Of a stretch of 47,842 nt of DNA, positions 7,596-37,653 are shown piece by piece. The DNA lies in IMG/VR virus record IMGVR_UViG_3300042465_001780, positions 1 through 47,842 of that record. One strand, given 5' to 3'. The translations under genes were made by a program, and so were the position numbers. How positions within the stretch are numbered: the first letter of the stretch is position 1; each line of letters begins with the position of its first letter. Below the pieces are notes generated by a model that saw only the letters and a list, made by a program, of their open reading frames with translations, did no database searches and was not told the DNA's origin. This stretch comes from a virus.

Positions 7596-7602
7596 TAACA
7601 AC

Positions 7603-7618
7603 GGGGGCCTCGGCCCCC
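7603..7618 (+). terminator. GC hairpin after the first early gene (T-less)
   Basis: GGGGGCC (7603-7609), TC loop, GGCCCCC (7612-7618), a 7-bp GC stem 7 bases after a stop codon. There is no T run, so it may be an RNase barrier or a pause site rather than a full terminator. Confidence 0.5.
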
Positions 7619-7634
7619 ACATTGGGAGAAACAA

Positions 7635-7943: not shown

Positions 7944-7995
7944 GGACAACTGATGAGGCTTTAGTAGCCGAAACCGCAGGGATGCGGTCTTGTTC
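7944..7995 (+). ncRNA. Type I hammerhead ribozyme
   Basis: All conserved hammerhead parts are present in order. Stem I 5' strand GGACAA (7944-7949). Core CTGATGA (7950-7956). Stem II GGCT/AGCC (7957-7960, 7966-7969) with loop TTAGT. Core GAA plus A15.1 (7970-7973). Stem III A-CCGCA / TGCGG-T (7973-7978, 7983-7988) closed by a GGGA tetraloop of GNRA form. Cleavage-site C17 at 7989. Stem I 3' strand TTGTTC (7990-7995), pairing with one G-U. The first pair of stem II is G-C and the cleavage triplet is GTC, both as in active ribozymes. Stem I is the open helix, which makes it type I. Predicted cut is between 7989 and 7990, separating the mRNA of the gene at 7635 from that of the gene at 8015 while leaving the latter's GGGAG site intact. 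Confidence 0.87.
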
Positions 7996-8014
7996 ATTAA
8001 TATAGGGAGATAGC

Positions 8015-8272
8015 ATGAGCTATGAAATAACGTACGCTGACATTGGGTCAGCAGAGACAGAGCAAAAAGCTTTATCAGATATCAAAGACTATTGGGGTGC
8101 AAAGCACTTCAAGAAAGTTACCGAAGCATTAGCTGATGATCATGGTAGATCTAGTAGGCAAATGATCATCATTAGTTTAATGATGTGCGGTGTGCAGGGT
8201 TACCCAGCCGAAGTGTTACTCAACACCTACTGGACACCACAGATGTTGCTTGAGCTTGAGGAAACAGCATGA
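8015..8272 (+). CDS. Small early protein, unknown function
   Basis: Encodes 85 residues. ATG has GGGAG 7 bases upstream and lies 25 bases after the predicted ribozyme cut. The stop overlaps the next start (ATGA), so the two genes are coupled. The N-terminal half (YADIGSAETEQKALSDIKDYWGAKHFKKVTEALAD) and C-terminal half (PAEVLLNTYWTPQMLLELEETA) look helical. No motif recognised. Confidence 0.72.
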   Translation: MSYEITYADIGSAETEQKALSDIKDYWGAKHFKKVTEALADDHGRSSRQMIIISLMMCGVQGYPAEVLLNTYWTPQMLLELEETA

Positions 8273-8503: not shown

Positions 8504-8531
8504 AAGAGGAGGCTTCGGCCTCCTCTTTTTT
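8504..8531 (+). terminator. Intrinsic terminator T1
   Basis: 10-bp stem AAGAGGAGGC / GCCTCCTCTT with a TTCG tetraloop and a T run to 8531. It ends the first early transcription unit, just after the stop codon at 8502. Confidence 0.92.
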
Positions 8532-8542
8532 GTGCCCGGATT

Positions 8543-8568
8543 GATACCAGTTATTTGTTCCCGCGAGC
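8543..8568 (+). repeat. 26-bp intergenic repeat, copy A
   Basis: First of three copies (also 9359-9384 and 10154-10179) sharing ACCAGTTATTTGT and CCGCGAGC with two variable bases between. Each copy lies 11-15 bases after an intrinsic terminator. Similarity continues more weakly for about 50 bases, to an ATCAG...CTGAT inverted repeat before the next promoter. Confidence 0.85.
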
Positions 8569-30162: not shown

Positions 30163-30322
30163 TCAAATGCAAGTGGGGCAGAGTTTCTTTATACCAACTC
30201 TGCGCCCTGCATACATGCTGTACGCAATACAGAATGGCGCTAAACGCGAAGGCATAGGAGTCAAAGTGCATAAGACAACCGAGGATGGATTCCTCGGTGT
30301 CCGTGCGTGGCGCATCAATTAA
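30098..30322 (+). CDS. Conserved small phage protein
   Basis: Encodes 74 residues, starting 65 bases inside the primase-helicase gene. Sequence has PFSQMQVGQSFFIPT and ends GVRAWRIN. Short phage proteins with P[FS]xxMxVGxSFF ... RVWRx are common and of unknown function; they often sit at the end of replication modules. It is the last plus-strand gene, and its stop overlaps by 4 bases the stop of the convergent giant virion gene. Confidence 0.78.
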   Translation: MSKKSPPEAMPLEEPEWIFPFSQMQVGQSFFIPTLRPAYMLYAIQNGAKREGIGVKVHKTTEDGFLGVRAWRIN

Positions 30323-33300
30323 GGTTTTACACCCATTGCGGCAAACTCATTTAGGATTCCAAGCTTGACAATGTTTTCGCCTAGCGTCAGGTAACGTAGC
30401 ATTGCTGTGCGCTCTGCCTGCGTAAGTTCCTGCATCTTGCGTACACTGTTCTTTTGCTCTTGGAAATCTTTTAGAGCGCCATTAATTGCAGAGTTGTAAT
30501 GTTCAACAAGGAATTCGTGCGTAGGATTCTTAGCTAAATACTTAGCGTAGCGCTCTGGGTCATCCTGCAAAGTCTTAACCGTACTTGCAATATCTTTAAT
30601 TTCTTTAGATACTTTAGAGAATTCACGAGCATCCACATTAGACACCGCGCCAAAGAAACGGTCAAACAAAAGTGTGTCAGTGCGGGGGTCAAACTCTTTG
30701 TTACCTACAAGTGATTGCGCAACATTGACACCGTTGTGCATCAACCGGGCCAAACCATCTGCGTAGTTATTAGCAAAGAAATACATTACGTTAGGTGACA
30801 CAGGTACACCGGTAATGTCGTAAAGCATTCTTGCCGCGCCTTTGTACAACTCAGGTATGTTGTCACCACCAACAAACACTTCACTTACTCGGCTCTTCTG
30901 AGCGTTGTAAATATCACGACCCAATGCATCCGTGTTCATTGCATATTCAATCATGGGGCGCAAGATAGAAGGGGCAAAAGTATCCGCAATCCACTCAGCA
31001 GGCTTATCGTATTTGTCAATTCTAGACACCGGTATAGGCAAGAATGAGTCTTGCGTAACCTCCATGATGTTACTTAACATGCCGAAGAAGCCGCGGTCTC
31101 CCTCTGGGCGCATGACTGCGCCATGTACGTAACCAGCTATCTGAGCGCCAGCAGAAGCAAATGCGCCAAGGCCAAAACCCCAAGGTAGTTGGAACACAAA
31201 GTCTCTGTCACCCACGCGGAAATGGAACCGTGCGTAGCGGGTGTAACGTGCCATGTCGTCAGTCACTGCTTTGTTGCGACCTAAATCATCATCGCCACCA
31301 GCCAATGCAGCCATTGTGTAAACCATCATACCCATGCCGATTAAGCCACCTGCGACAGCGCGAGCGTGCTGCCGACGCTTGTCGTGTTCTTTTTTATACT
31401 TCTCAATAGCGTCAGGGTCTTTGTATACGCGTTGCTCATCCTTAAACTCGTAAGCAAATGTTCCCTCATTAGGTAGCATCTTCACGGCCTTGTCTGCGCT
31501 AACAAACGCAGGAGCCAGAGCCTCGATTGCACGCACCGCACCTGTAGCGGCTGGGCGGAAGAACATGAACATAGCGCCCATAGCCTGACCCCACTCACCG
31601 ACCTGTTCAAAGTTTGCTAAGTTTTTGCCATCGCCTACGGCTTTCTGCTTTGCTTCCGCTTCGCTCATACCTTTACTCATGTATTGCTGCTTAAGGATAC
31701 GGTATGCAGCTACACGACTGGCCAATTCAAAAGAGTCAGACCAAACGTCAACAACTTTATCTACGCCTTTTTTGCCTTTAACAAAAACGTTAGTACCCTT
31801 GACGTCGGCTTCAAAGTCTTCAGCCAAACCTTCTGCAGTCAAGCTCCTGATATAAGAAACTTTACCGCCAGCGTTTACATAATCGTTAAGGTCTCTAAAG
31901 TCTGGGTCTGTTTTGGCAAGGCGCTCAATCTCGCCAAACTTCTTAGCTGTGTACATGGCAGAAAACTTACCGGCTTTGTACAGACCACCATGAAGAACCT
32001 GCTTACCAATCAACTGTTTTAGATAGTCAACGCCAATGCCCCAGCCTTCTTTAGAAGCTATGTTAAATGTGTTAGTTAATCCATCAATTAAGAAGTTAGC
32101 CGGCGCAAATGATATGTTGTAACGAGTGTGCATTTGCCCAAAGAAACTTGTAGCAGAATTAAGCACGCCCACCACCGGATTAGCATCGCGGTACGTTCTA
32201 CGGATAGCTTCGCGTAGCTGTGGGTCATCAATTTTAATAATTGTGATCGTGCCGTCAGGCTCGTAATGGAAGATTGCATTTGCGCCACGCAACTTAGCAA
32301 CGTCTACATCACCTTTGTATCGGTCTTCAAACTTAATCTTAAGGCGTTTGTCTTTGTCGCCCGTTATGCCTTTAATCATGCCGGAGTTAACCGCATTCTT
32401 AATTGCTAAAGTTAAACCTTGTCCGTCTATACCACTGCGACCAGCACGCGCTGCGGCATGAGTTGCATCAAGCATTGTCTGCACGATTGTATTATTAGAG
32501 TCAGAGATACGGCCTTCAAATGTATTCTGCACCTCTTGCATCTCTCGACCGACACCAGTCTTAATATCAAACTGATCATCAGTATCTTTATTGGCGCGAC
32601 CTTTAAACGGTACGTAGTGTTTAAAGTCATACAACTTAACAACGCTATCTACGGGCTGCGACCAATAGTTAGCGTCTCTATTAAGTTTAATTGTTTTCTT
32701 CTGAAGGTTTTCAAGCTTCTTTAGAATTGCGTCAACTTCAGCTTTGTTTGCATAGTTTTTATACGCCTCATACGCTGCTTCTCGCGAAGGTAAGTCATAG
32801 TTACCAATCACGTTGTATTGCGTGCTTTGCTCATCAGCAGAAGTGTAGCGTGCGTTTTTATCGCCAATTTGAACGGGTGATGCAGGATCTGTGTACCACG
32901 AGTAGCCGTTTGTATCGTCAATACTGCCGCCCTGACTCTTTGGTTTTGCAAACTTCTCAAGCTCTGCGCGATAACCTTCAATCTCTTTGTCGGTCATCTT
33001 TTCGCCCTTGCGGAACTTCTGGATGATTTCTGCGCGACGTGTAGCAGAAGCTAAATCAAGGGGTGCGTAAAACAAAAACTTAATGTGGCGACGCTCACGT
33101 TCGTGCAACGTACGAGCAAATACATGCATTGTTTTAAGAGTGCGGTCAAAGTCTACGCCAGACTTATCAGCCAGCTTCTGCATCATGTCATGGATAGACT
33201 GAATGTCTTGCTCTAACTCGCGCTCGTATATGTTACGCGCACGGCCTGTAGACATTGTGATTTCGTTGTATACAGCATTAATCTTCTGGCCCGCGTACAC

Positions 33301-36300
33301 AATCTTGTTAACCATCTCGTTTGAAGCTTCCCATGCTTTGATAGCATGGCGGTTGTTTGCAAAACGACGGATGATATCCCTGCCACCCTCTGCGGTTGTA
33401 AATAGTTTGTACAGACTTTGTTTTGTCCTTGGCATCTGCGAGCCAACTGCATCATCAACTTGTTCTTCAAACGAAGCCGTTGTCTGAGTCTTTGGTTGGT
33501 TCTTAGGCGTTGCGGGAGTAGCGGGTGTAGGAGGCGGTGTTGCAGCAGCGCTTCCTTGTGTTGCCAACTCTGGTACTTCTTCTACGGCTTCAGGCGCAAC
33601 CATGATGTCGTTAAAAGCCGCGGCAGCTTCTATTAGCAGGTTACCTTTGTAGCCGGGCTGTGTGTACGTATCTTTACGTAGATTAGTGATACCACCTTTG
33701 GTAACGGTTGCACCAACACGAGCCTCCATACCCGGAGCAAGGCTATCCATAGTTGTGTTGAACGGAATGCTTTTAACGCCAGCAAGGGCGGCTTCGCCAT
33801 CGCTAATGCCTTCGTCAAAGGTTGACTCTTCGTCTTTGATGGCTTCGTCAGCGCCTGTTAGCAACGCAATCTCATCGGGTAGTGGTGGCCCTTTTTCCTG
33901 CATTCTTTCAAGAAAAGCTTCGTCTGCTTCAGTTACTTTATCCCTTGCACCTTTAGGTAATGCTTGCACACCTGTAGTAACGTTTCGCTTACCGTAATTT
34001 TCAACGGGAACCAGATAGCTAGTCTTTCTCTTGCTAGGCGTAAAGGCTTTATAGATGTAAGCAAGTGCTGTGGTGAACGCATCCCATACAGTTTTACCTG
34101 TAGGGAATTCATAGTCACGCATTACTTGCCCCACTCGAGCGCGTCCTGTAGCGCGGACTGCATCATCTAGCTGTATCTTGACAAGTTCATTTTGGAACTT
34201 CAAGTCAGTCATTGAGTACGCAACAAACTCGTACAAGTTCTTAAACGCTGCTGGGAACTTCTTACCCAGTCTGCTCTGTGATAAAGCAAAGATTGATTGC
34301 AGATGCTCAACACCCTTGCGCTGTCTTTCAGTCAAGACAGATGGATCTTTAAAGAACTGACGAATAATCTTGGCTGTAACTGCGTGCGTTATCTCATGCA
34401 GTACGGCAGTTTCTGTAAACCCAAATGGGCCAAACGTCATTGTGTTTGTCTTGGGGTCGTATTTAGCCAGACCTTCTTTGGGGTCAAGGTTAGCATCAAA
34501 TACTACTTTGATCTTAGTGTCACCAATTGTCGACAGCAGGGACTCGGCAAGGTTGCGATAAACCTTTGAACTCATCTCACGAGATACACGGATCAGTTGC
34601 CCTGCAAGACTGCCCTCACGCACCAATGTACCGCGCTTGTATGTAAGGCGCTCTTCAGCGGTCTTAACTGCTTGCTTAACTTTACGCTCAATAGCAACTG
34701 GATCTTCTTCAGTTTCAAGCAAACGCTTACGCTCATTATCAGCAACAAGTTTTAGATACTCTTCTTGCTTAGCCTTCTGTGTTTTAATCTCTGTTTTGGT
34801 AACGCCCACACGAGTGAGGGGCGCAGTCTTAGCGCCACGAGCGTTATCTGACAGCCACTGAAGAACACCCTTAACATCGCCTTCTTGCAAACGACGAATC
34901 ATCTGCACGGTTAATGCATCGCCTTGGCTCTTAGGGTCATTCTCAATCATTGCCTCAGTTGCGGCATGCATCTGTGCAACTAAATCATCATTAGCTTGCT
35001 GCTCTCTTTGACGTTTGTCTTCGGCCTCTGTCTGAGAAAACTTTGTTTCTGTTTTGCGTATCTTACGAAAAGCAAGCTCTTGTTCTGCAGGGCTGCCTCG
35101 CTGCACTGTGTCACGGTATACCTGTTTGTTTTCTTCAGATAAGCTGTTCCAGTTGGGCAACGTGCTTGGTTTGTTCTGCTCGTAGTCGTGCTGTATTTCA
35201 AAGTCTTTTCTAGCTTCATCTGCCGCAGCTTTAGCGGCAATTTCTGTTGACTCTTTAGAGGCTGCGCCACGCTTAGCTTCATTACGAGCTTTCTTACGCG
35301 CATCGCGTTGAACAGCAAGCAAGTCGGCACGGTACTCTAACAAGCGCTGAGTAGCCTTAATGTGTTCTGATACGCTGTTACCAAACTTTGCAGCCTGACC
35401 GCCAAAGTAAATGCCCTTCTCATAGGGCGTTAGATCGCTAAATGAAGGCAGCTTAAGCAGCTTGCCTAACTGTTCCGTAACAAAACTTCTGTCGTCTTCA
35501 ATGTCTTCTGCAGTAGCTTCTGGAAGATTGCCTTGTTCCTTAATTAAATCTTCCGCAATTTCTTTAGCGGACTGTTCAATGTTTTCAGAATGCGCTTGGC
35601 GTTGCTCGTTGTACAGTTCCTGCTCTTCTTTGCTTAGCTTGTACAAGCCCTCGCGTTTTTGCTGGCGTAACTCATCAACAGTCTTCTGTAGGTCTTCATC
35701 AGTTTGACCTGCAACTCTTGTCTTGTCTGGCAACTCTTGAAACGCCCCGCGTTGAGGTGCTGGCGCTTTTTCTTTTGATGCATCTTTTAGTGAGTCAACA
35801 TCATTCCAAAAACGGTTGTCGTCAAACCCTTGATCAGACGCGTAGTCAGTAAGGTCAAGTTTAAATCTACCAGCAGCAGCTTTAATTTCTGCGGCCTGCA
35901 AGTCAGTGTAGAAGCGGTCTTCATCAAGGCCGGCTTGTGTGATGTAACTATCGTAGTTAAGCCCGTACCATTTTGCTTGTTGACGCTCCTCTTGCTCAAT
36001 TGGATCTTCACCGCCGACTGGCAAATCAGTGGGGTCTATTTTCTGTTGCTTACGTTTATTGCGTAGGGCTTGCGCTTGGCTTCCCTTTACTTGAGTATTT
36101 ACTGCAGGGGGCTCTCCTCCTGTTCCTGCAGGAGGCTTTCCAGCATCCGACTCAGGAGGAACCACTCCATCTGCTGGAGGTGTCGCAGCTCCTTCGGTAT
36201 CGGTTTCGGTAGGGGGTCGTAGATCCACGCCAGCGCCTTCTCCACCTGCTGATTCGATAGGTTTTGTAGCATTTGCGCCTCCCGCGGCTTGTAGCTCCGT

Positions 36301-37653
36301 AATTCTTTTAGCAAGATTATCCCTCGCTGTAATAATATTTTTGTTAAAAGCATTTGATGTTGCTCCAGCCGCTTCAGCCTTTGCAATGCTTTCGTTGTAC
36401 TGATTAAGAATGCCATTAAGTTCGTCTAGGTCAGTGCTAGTCTTAGCAATCTGCCCACGAGACTGTTTCTTAATTGCTTCTTTAAGTGTGTTGGGTTTTT
36501 CTTCTGCAGGCTTTTCTTCTACGAGTGGTTCACCTTGCTTGACTACATCAAGCGCATCGGGTTCTTCAGCAGCTTTTTTACCGCCCTCTACAGCGGGTTT
36601 ACCACCACCGCTAACAATACCTGCCGCACCACCCATACCCGCAGCGCCCAGCGTAGCTTGAGCGGCAGTTTCACCAAAGCCTTCGGTAAGCGCTTGCTTC
36701 TCATTAACTTGACGCATTGCCAAGTTCTGCAGCGCACGACCGCCAACTTCCTCAATGTTCTCACTGGGAGTTTCTTTAATAGCGCCAGCAAGTGCGCCAG
36801 TAATACGACCCATGCCGGTTCTCTCGCCAGCCAACGCACGCTCAAACGCTTGCGCTCCGGGAAGTTTTTGAGCTAACAACGACAAAGCCGCACCGCCAAG
36901 ACCTGCAGCACGGGCATAGTTAAGCGTTGTATCTGCCGCTTCTGCCTCACCCATCTTTTGCTGTTCAGTAAGGTACTTATACATAGACTCGTAAGTACCC
37001 GTACCTACGTCTGCGCCCTGTTGAACTGCGGCAGTTCTTATTGCGCCCTTTGCACCTGCGCTAACGGCGGCTTTCTTAGCTGCGGCTTCAGCTTCTTCTT
37101 TAGCTAGACCAGAGGCGGCTTTCTTAGCAACTTCGCGAAGTGCGGCTACGTTAGCAGAAGCAGCGGGAGTACCGATAGCGGCAAGTAACGCCGGTATTTG
37201 TTGCGGTAGTTGTTCAGCAAAGAAGTTGGCCAACAGCGCAGGGTCAGAAACAGTTTGACCAAGCGAGGTTTTAAACGCTTCAAACTCGCCTTTCTTTTGC
37301 GCTTCTTGTACAGCACGTTGTGCAGCAGCTTCTCGTGCTTTAAATCCAGCGGACTTTAATCCCTTACCGTATTCTTCAAGTTCTTGAGCTGCGCCATAGA
37401 GACCAGTTTTTGAGAAGTCGCCTGTAGCCAATCCGTAAAGCTGACCGGGAAACTGACCAAGGCCACCCAGACCCGACAATAAGCCAGCGCCTACGTCAGA
37501 GACCGATTCGCCCATAGTACGCTCTTTAGCCCGCGCCTCAACTCGCGGCATTTCCCGCGCCATCATCTGTTGAGCCTGCTCTGGCGTAGTGCCCTCTGGT
37601 ACTTCAAACCGGGCAATCCGGCCATCGGGCATTTCAAAGCGTGCTATTGGCAT
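30319..37653 (-). CDS. Giant internal-virion/ejection-type polyvalent protein with HEITH motif
   Basis: Encodes 2444 residues. The first residues (MPIARFEMPDGRIARFEVPEG) match the start of other large phage virion proteins. Hydrophobic Gly/Ala segments occur at about 45-75 and 320-345. A disordered Pro/Gly region spans about 470-540. Long charged helices cover about 540-1000. A zinc-peptidase motif VLHEITHAVTAK is at about 1085 after an FDANLDPKEGLAKYDPKTNTMTFG lead-in. A C-terminal part (about 1800-2200) resembles large polyvalent protein domains (NISFAPANFLIDGLTNTFNIASKEG) and includes a hydrophobic GGLIGMGMMVYTMAALAGG segment. Likely packed in the head or tail base and ejected with DNA, with the peptidase acting on wall or host protein. 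Role inferred. Confidence 0.85.
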   Translation of the reverse strand: MPIARFEMPDGRIARFEVPEGTTPEQAQQMMAREMPRVEARAKERTMGESVSDVGAGLLSGLGGLGQFPGQLYGLATGDFSKTGLYGAAQELEEYGKGLKSAGFKAREAAAQRAVQEAQKKGEFEAFKTSLGQTVSDPALLANFFAEQLPQQIPALLAAIGTPAASANVAALREVAKKAASGLAKEEAEAAAKKAAVSAGAKGAIRTAAVQQGADVGTGTYESMYKYLTEQQKMGEAEAADTTLNYARAAGLGGAALSLLAQKLPGAQAFERALAGERTGMGRITGALAGAIKETPSENIEEVGGRALQNLAMRQVNEKQALTEGFGETAAQATLGAAGMGGAAGIVSGGGKPAVEGGKKAAEEPDALDVVKQGEPLVEEKPAEEKPNTLKEAIKKQSRGQIAKTSTDLDELNGILNQYNESIAKAEAAGATSNAFNKNIITARDNLAKRITELQAAGGANATKPIESAGGEGAGVDLRPPTETDTEGAATPPADGVVPPESDAGKPPAGTGGEPPAVNTQVKGSQAQALRNKRKQQKIDPTDLPVGGEDPIEQEERQQAKWYGLNYDSYITQAGLDEDRFYTDLQAAEIKAAAGRFKLDLTDYASDQGFDDNRFWNDVDSLKDASKEKAPAPQRGAFQELPDKTRVAGQTDEDLQKTVDELRQQKREGLYKLSKEEQELYNEQRQAHSENIEQSAKEIAEDLIKEQGNLPEATAEDIEDDRSFVTEQLGKLLKLPSFSDLTPYEKGIYFGGQAAKFGNSVSEHIKATQRLLEYRADLLAVQRDARKKARNEAKRGAASKESTEIAAKAAADEARKDFEIQHDYEQNKPSTLPNWNSLSEENKQVYRDTVQRGSPAEQELAFRKIRKTETKFSQTEAEDKRQREQQANDDLVAQMHAATEAMIENDPKSQGDALTVQMIRRLQEGDVKGVLQWLSDNARGAKTAPLTRVGVTKTEIKTQKAKQEEYLKLVADNERKRLLETEEDPVAIERKVKQAVKTAEERLTYKRGTLVREGSLAGQLIRVSREMSSKVYRNLAESLLSTIGDTKIKVVFDANLDPKEGLAKYDPKTNTMTFGPFGFTETAVLHEITHAVTAKIIRQFFKDPSVLTERQRKGVEHLQSIFALSQSRLGKKFPAAFKNLYEFVAYSMTDLKFQNELVKIQLDDAVRATGRARVGQVMRDYEFPTGKTVWDAFTTALAYIYKAFTPSKRKTSYLVPVENYGKRNVTTGVQALPKGARDKVTEADEAFLERMQEKGPPLPDEIALLTGADEAIKDEESTFDEGISDGEAALAGVKSIPFNTTMDSLAPGMEARVGATVTKGGITNLRKDTYTQPGYKGNLLIEAAAAFNDIMVAPEAVEEVPELATQGSAAATPPPTPATPATPKNQPKTQTTASFEEQVDDAVGSQMPRTKQSLYKLFTTAEGGRDIIRRFANNRHAIKAWEASNEMVNKIVYAGQKINAVYNEITMSTGRARNIYERELEQDIQSIHDMMQKLADKSGVDFDRTLKTMHVFARTLHERERRHIKFLFYAPLDLASATRRAEIIQKFRKGEKMTDKEIEGYRAELEKFAKPKSQGGSIDDTNGYSWYTDPASPVQIGDKNARYTSADEQSTQYNVIGNYDLPSREAAYEAYKNYANKAEVDAILKKLENLQKKTIKLNRDANYWSQPVDSVVKLYDFKHYVPFKGRANKDTDDQFDIKTGVGREMQEVQNTFEGRISDSNNTIVQTMLDATHAAARAGRSGIDGQGLTLAIKNAVNSGMIKGITGDKDKRLKIKFEDRYKGDVDVAKLRGANAIFHYEPDGTITIIKIDDPQLREAIRRTYRDANPVVGVLNSATSFFGQMHTRYNISFAPANFLIDGLTNTFNIASKEGWGIGVDYLKQLIGKQVLHGGLYKAGKFSAMYTAKKFGEIERLAKTDPDFRDLNDYVNAGGKVSYIRSLTAEGLAEDFEADVKGTNVFVKGKKGVDKVVDVWSDSFELASRVAAYRILKQQYMSKGMSEAEAKQKAVGDGKNLANFEQVGEWGQAMGAMFMFFRPAATGAVRAIEALAPAFVSADKAVKMLPNEGTFAYEFKDEQRVYKDPDAIEKYKKEHDKRRQHARAVAGGLIGMGMMVYTMAALAGGDDDLGRNKAVTDDMARYTRYARFHFRVGDRDFVFQLPWGFGLGAFASAGAQIAGYVHGAVMRPEGDRGFFGMLSNIMEVTQDSFLPIPVSRIDKYDKPAEWIADTFAPSILRPMIEYAMNTDALGRDIYNAQKSRVSEVFVGGDNIPELYKGAARMLYDITGVPVSPNVMYFFANNYADGLARLMHNGVNVAQSLVGNKEFDPRTDTLLFDRFFGAVSNVDAREFSKVSKEIKDIASTVKTLQDDPERYAKYLAKNPTHEFLVEHYNSAINGALKDFQEQKNSVRKMQELTQAERTAMLRYLTLGENIVKLGILNEFAAMGVKP

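Follow-up and report, generated by a model that had tools for sequence, protein, structure and literature searches.

Genomic Context of the Ribozyme Locus

The window, by which we mean the whole stretch of DNA that was analysed (47,842 nucleotides), is a 47.8-kb virus record. It belongs to a tailed phage whose terminase and portal genes lie to the left and whose DNA polymerase, helicase, and primase genes lie to the right. A block of small accessory genes lies between the terminase and replication blocks, and it is within this block that a type I hammerhead ribozyme motif is found (Table 1). The window terminase is approximately 49–53% identical to those of the nearest cultured phages, including Pelagibacter phages HTVC027P and HTVC023P, and no useful DNA relatives were returned by megablast of 10 kb or by a distant blastn search of the locus in the phages collection. 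A search of the window for a second ribozyme, using both the motif finder and the covariance model described below, found none.

Table 1. Features of the ribozyme locus in the window.
Feature	Position	Strand	Remarks
Hairpin ACGGGGGCCUCGGCCCCCAC ahead of 102-aa gene	7601..7620	+	Same slot holds a hammerhead in three relatives
Upstream gene, 102 aa	7635..7943	+	No PHROG match; stop abuts ribozyme
Upstream stop codon TAA	7941–7943	+	Abuts ribozyme
Unpaired conserved A, stem I 5′ flank	7943	+	Also final base of TAA stop
Type I hammerhead ribozyme	7944..7995	+	Stem I 6 bp, open; by sequence, fold, finder and covariance model
Stem I 5′ strand GGACAA	7944..7949	+	Pairs with 7990–7995; 6/6 pairs covary across relatives
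Core CUGAUGA	7950..7956	+	Contains tandem UGA UGA; direct reading
Stem II GGCU/AGCC with loop UUAGU	7957–7960/7966–7969 (whole 7957..7969)	+	3/4 pairs covary
Core GAA	7970..7972	+	Direct reading; invariant in alignment A1
Stem III hairpin ACCGCA/UGCGGU with GGGA tetraloop	7973–7978/7983–7988 (whole 7973..7988)	+	5/6 pairs covary
C17 and predicted cleavage site, C17/U1.1	C17 at 7989; cleavage 7989/7990	+	Deduced from the family rules for hammerheads
Stem I 3′ strand UUGUUC	7990..7995	+	One G-U pair; predicted 5′-OH start of downstream mRNA
Unpaired conserved A, stem I 3′ flank	7996	+	AUU in window, AAC in most relatives
Shine-Dalgarno-like AGGGAG of downstream gene	8004..8009	+	Sequence
Downstream gene, 85 aa	8015..8272	+	No PHROG match; in relatives preceded by hammerhead, plain hairpin or nothing
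Next gene, 77 aa	8269..8502	+	Overlaps 85-aa gene; directly after ribozyme in L002
Terminator-like hairpin with U run	8504..8527	+	Closes gene block; sequence feature

Right after the terminator-like hairpin, at 8539–8560, is a sequence near TTGATACCAGTTATTTGT that is conserved in many relatives, including L004, L008, and L104, and could be a promoter or other phage signal. Elsewhere in the window, a 2444-aa reading frame on the negative strand (30319–37653) has no PHROG match, and the same is true of the adjoining frames of 623, 916, and 736 aa.

Structure of the Hammerhead Motif

Direct reading of the positive strand at 7944–7995 gives stems I, II, and III of 6, 4, and 6 bp with all core bases present, and the minimum-free-energy fold is exactly the hammerhead structure at −17.7 kcal/mol, a folding energy that is by itself only modestly unusual (z −1.97). 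The fold and the 14 of 16 covarying pairs described below place stem I as the open helix, with stems II and III closed by loops. The core CUGANGA ... GAA, with its A15.1-U16.1 and G10.1-C11.1 pairs, is complete in the window and invariant across alignment A1, and the GUC at the predicted cleavage site agrees with the NUH triplet rule, in which H17 is not G. Judged by its sequence, the motif is a canonical type I hammerhead. An earlier note on this DNA had drawn such a ribozyme here, and every base was found as drawn by direct reading, fold, and finder: all core bases are there in the right order, with a GTC triplet and a 6-bp stem I containing one G-U pair, the motif starts right after a stop codon, and 19 bases separate its end from the ATG at 8015.

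Covariation and Conservation of the Core

An alignment of 67 diverse sequences formed 16 of 16 pairs, 14 of them with changes on both sides, which bears out the covariation in related phages that the earlier note had put forward as a check. The covariation score is 0.806, compared with 0.17 for shuffled sequences and less than 0.09 for slid structures. Since the finder demanded pairing, the percentage of paired positions is partly circular. Most of this circularity was removed with a sequence-only pattern that gave 118 distinct matches: the stem II pairs tested are all formed in 117 and the four tested inner stem III pairs in 110, while the two outer stem I pairs are formed in all 118 through seven pair combinations. 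Seven of the eight remaining matches for stem III have three of the four pairs and lack the fourth only, mostly because stem III is one pair shorter.

The core is likewise conserved. Substitutions in 23 near relatives of the window ribozyme fall at N7, in loops, or at paired positions, never at invariant core bases. Weak covariance-model matches mostly retain the core as well, with rare departures that are mainly U4C (two variants). This change (CCGANGA) was observed in otherwise well-preserved ribozymes at L280 4985–5042 and L292 13840–13901, and it is known from viroids to lower activity (PMC3088659). When position 17 was left unconstrained, the 192 type I relatives among the matches listed had C in 175 cases, A in 16, U in one, and G in none. 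The compensatory changes and the sparing of the invariant core show that the ribozyme structure is under selection.

Chance Controls and Detection by Covariance Models

The core pattern was matched once in the window and in none of 100 shuffles. Across 2.63 Mb of fetched loci, which are interrelated and in which reading frames were called by simple rules, a three-permutation hammerhead finder that requires pairing gave 369 matches, against one match in the reversed and none in the Markov-shuffled sequence. Eighty loci, many of them fragments, were also fetched by terminase similarity and hence blind to the ribozyme; they yielded a further six hammerheads, every one of type I and, like that of the window, encoded opposite to the terminase gene. 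Two pattern scans of viral contigs gave at least hundreds of hammerheads, and type I is abundant in the phage contigs. The controls, the related phages, and the covariation show that the window hammerhead is not a chance product.

In the Rfam search proposed in the earlier note, Rfam 15 at gathering thresholds gave no match in the window, and the best sub-threshold match was RAGATH-1-hammerhead at 19.3 bits (threshold 56.3). That model (RF03152) shares the hammerhead core, and its upstream hairpin is poorly matched here. Rfam Hammerhead_1 (RF00163) has the same topology and core, yet its gathering score is reached neither by the window nor by 40 of the 41 finder-positive relatives from ten loci; the one ribozyme recovered lies in L270 (36.2 bits). 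The miss in the window shows limited model sensitivity rather than absence of the motif. A covariance model built here scores the window site at 73.2 bits (E 8e-18), the window being one of its 67 training rows. Because Rfam finds one in 41, the group is easily missed, and the Rfam thresholds overlook almost all of these ribozymes.

Loop II Class and the Flanks of Stem I

Stem I is 6 bp long in 301 of 308 cases. No outer helix was found beyond it in the relatives, where the mean is 1.74 compared with 1.87 in shuffled sequences. In the window, an extended stem I could be drawn through the UAA/UUA flanks with A7996 bulged; this was rejected, as the relatives lack an outer helix. What is conserved at the open end is the flanking base itself, with an A on both sides of stem I in 151 of 152 relatives. 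The few flank exceptions had a stem II tetraloop, mostly GNAA, and not the UNANU pentaloop.

A prediction of the flanks from the loop II class was written beforehand, and contigs were scanned blind with patterns that fixed the core and loop II only, leaving stem I and its flanks free. Among the matches listed, a UNANU loop II is accompanied by A/A flanks in 109 of 110 cases, while a GNAA loop II is accompanied by a pyrimidine/U combination in 64 of 65 and by A/A in none of 65. The association of loop II class with flank gives a Fisher p of approximately 8e-48, uncorrected for kinship, and L270 has both classes in one contig. The window loop, UUAGU, is a UNANU pentaloop and so belongs to the first docking class, for which A/A flanks are predicted. 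Such covariation is what would be expected if loop II touched the end of stem I, and the data are therefore consistent with, and point to, docking of loop II onto the open end of stem I. A comparable contact is known in the Schistosoma and newt type I hammerheads, in which loop II contacts distal stem I (PMC6155905); there, however, it uses an internal loop in an extended stem I, whereas the outer helix is absent here.

The GNAA loop II pattern was also observed in at least 23 type III hammerheads in viral contigs (loci L299 and above). A further hammerhead with a GNAA loop II, in the region of L320 1438–1461, lies inside an array of approximately 11 tRNA genes, suggesting that it is used in tRNA processing.

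Placement between Genes and Copy Number

As in the hammerheads grouped by Perreault et al. in 2011, the ribozyme sits at a gene border, on the strand of the genes, in a phage genome. A start codon follows the ribozyme at a median of 19 nt (interquartile range 18–22) in 304 of 308 cases, 266 of these start codons having a Shine-Dalgarno-like motif. The two blind sets are more spread, with medians of 21 and 25 nt; nevertheless, a start codon at 15–22 nt was found in 46 of 105 and 17 of 65 of their ribozymes, versus 9 of 560 and 14 of 400 random same-strand positions. Where several copies occur in a locus (up to nine), they are all on one strand in 84 of 84 loci. Whole-record covariance-model searches found 14 copies each in L280 (record G002, 22.5 kb) and L270 (record G003, 39.8 kb), many of them directly between adjacent small genes.

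Exchange of Ribozymes and Hairpins at Gene Borders

The slots occupied in the window differ in content among its relatives. In the near relative L004, the 102-aa gene is followed by the 77-aa gene, and both the ribozyme and the 85-aa gene are missing; L002 has the ribozyme and lacks the 85-aa gene; and in L019 and L022 a GGGGCUUCGGCCCC hairpin stands ahead of the 85-aa gene. The slot before the 102-aa gene holds a hammerhead in L167, L083, and L191 and a plain hairpin in the window, L002, L003, and L004. It thus seems that ribozymes and hairpins can stand in for each other at gene borders, as would suit elements that make mRNA ends. The ribozyme itself is dispensable at this site, as it is missing from L004 and only six of the 80 terminase-selected loci carry one, and the exchanges show that no single site requires it. 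Separation of the messages is not essential because ribozyme-free relatives have hairpins or nothing in its place.

Proposed Role in Phage mRNA Processing

The reading that we consider probable is that the motif is a type I hammerhead acting in cis to punctuate a polycistronic phage transcript. The 52-nt motif would fold as the RNA polymerase passes, and loop II would dock on the two unpaired A bases that flank the 6-bp stem I at its open end. The RNA would then cut itself after C7989 in a constitutive cis-cleavage. The upstream mRNA, carrying the 102-aa gene, would be left with the stem III hairpin, capped by its GNRA loop, and a 2′,3′-cyclic phosphate as its 3′ end, which should resist 3′ exonucleases. 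The downstream mRNA, carrying the 85-aa and 77-aa genes, would start with a 5′-hydroxyl and a 25-nt leader bearing only the ribosome-binding site. The same module at many gene borders of the relatives would give uniform mRNA ends to genes with differing neighbours, with no need for host RNases. Cleavage in the cell, the docking contact, the chemistry of the ends, and the effects on stability and expression are what we infer.

A wider proposal, in our view somewhat less likely than not, is that a standard 52-nt self-cleaving module separates whole phage gene blocks; it would close the upstream frame, form the 3′ hairpin of the upstream mRNA, and define the leader of the downstream one. Either of two interchangeable docking classes (UNANU with A/A, or GNAA with pyrimidine/U) would serve in this module, and the outcome would be mostly single-gene mRNAs made without host RNases or internal promoters.

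The overlap of the ribozyme with the preceding gene suggests another role, that of a translation-coupled switch. In 167 of 308 cases, the stop codon of the upstream frame falls within the ribozyme, most commonly on the core UGA at +7 (75 cases), and it overlaps the first base or bases in 32 more; in the blind sets, it lies inside or overlaps the ribozyme in 71 of 100 and 41 of 62. The tandem UGA UGA of the core is the stop of the upstream gene in many relatives, though not in the window. A terminating ribosome could thereby hold stem I open, so that cleavage would occur only when the upstream gene is untranslated or the ribosome has gone, making the ribozyme a regulator and not a constitutive punctuation mark. 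However, in 137 of 308 cases, the window included, the stop directly adjoins the ribozyme, overlaps it by the first base, or is located further upstream, and the core has a UGA in one frame by necessity, so that the overlap is partly unavoidable where genes are tightly packed. We consider such a switch unlikely as the main role.

An equally unlikely role, in our estimation, is that of an insulating linker for gene exchange, which would join any two accessory genes safely by supplying an upstream stop, an mRNA 3′ end, and a fresh leader, and whose repetition would also aid recombination of modules. L086 and L105 share the upstream gene and differ in the downstream gene across one ribozyme, and the exchanges described above, with the ribozyme and 85-aa gene missing as a unit in L004, the ribozyme alone in L002, and hairpins in the same slots, are of the kind expected from it. 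A pure recombination role, however, would require neither fold-preserving compensatory changes nor covariation of the docking bases, and copies within one genome are often similar only in the core. Both translation coupling and gene-exchange linking are compatible with a processing role and could coexist with it.

A ligand- or condition-controlled ribozyme, or natural aptazyme, that cuts in certain cell states only is improbable. Structured inserts in stem III of some relatives (35–64 nt in L352, L353, L409, and L347; 42–64 nt as given for these four together with L436) are possible regulatory domains, but a search of the inserts of five loci, L352, L353, and L347 among them, gave no Rfam riboswitch or aptamer match, most relatives are short-looped, and the bare GGGA tetraloop of the window leaves no room for a sensor. 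Hammerheads are simple motifs and four of 18 consensus matches were inactive in vitro in the study of Perreault et al. (PMC3088659), but a chance or decayed look-alike without function is contradicted by the covariation, by 369 finder matches against 0–1 in controls, and by the sparing of invariant core bases in the 23 near relatives, core departures being rare and mainly U4C, and we give it hardly any credence.

Relation to Known Hammerhead Ribozymes

Clustered hammerheads around prophage genes were described by Perreault et al. in 2011, who put forward the idea that they serve to process long phage transcripts into mRNAs of gene length (PMC3088659). In vitro cleavage was shown for tandem hammerheads of prophages, and for the A. 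tumefaciens ardA triple cleavage was also shown in E. coli; the HHphage ribozyme of HF1/HF2 is located 13 nt ahead of a start codon, and the 5′ end of the HF2 transcript falls within 3 nt of the hammerhead site (PMC3088659). The role of prokaryotic hammerheads was still an open question in a 2017 review (PMC6155905). A literature search on RNA ends in hammerhead-bearing phages found only the 2011 study to be relevant. The processing idea itself is therefore not new, having been known since that study, and the description of this arrangement in the earlier note as little described does not hold; nor does its impression that type I is unusual in phages, since types I, II, and III are about equally frequent in bacteria (PMC3088659) and type I is abundant in the phage contigs scanned here.

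The prophage and bacterial hammerheads of 2011 are like those described here in lying between small phage genes, in occurring several per genome, and in the mRNA processing proposed for them. In contrast, the present group is of one highly uniform type I form, with an un-extended 6-bp stem I and A/A or pyrimidine/U flanks tied to the loop II class; a start codon lies approximately 19 nt away, the upstream stop commonly falls within the ribozyme, and a contig can hold as many as 14 copies. Provisionally, a 6-bp stem I that lacks an extension and comes with paired docking classes, the close spacing of stop, ribozyme, and start, and the 14 copies per phage contig were not found in the literature searched.

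Members in Cultured Phages and Implications

Matches were also found in Cellulophaga phage phi18:3, Flavobacterium phage elemoB, Pelagibacter phages HTVC131P and EXVC012P, and Agrobacterium phage OLIVR1, and a weaker member in a Giesbergeria anulus genome contig (L195). The Pelagibacter and Cellulophaga phage hammerheads lie within a few kb of ardA (L294 822–1689 and 3487–4713; L296 10433–10999), resembling the Agrobacterium prophage arrangement described in 2011, and those of the Pelagibacter phages are also near marR and integrase genes.

Because five cultured phages carry a member, the role of the ribozyme can be tested in infection, and the fixed geometry and conserved docking bases make that role testable in specific terms. 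The geometry predicts that a 5′-OH end lies approximately 25 nt ahead of each start codon and that the upstream message finishes on the stem III hairpin, and the docking rule predicts that activity would be lost on swapping loop II or the flanking base alone, and retained on swapping both. The hammerheads at phage gene borders probably cut a shared message into separate mRNAs.
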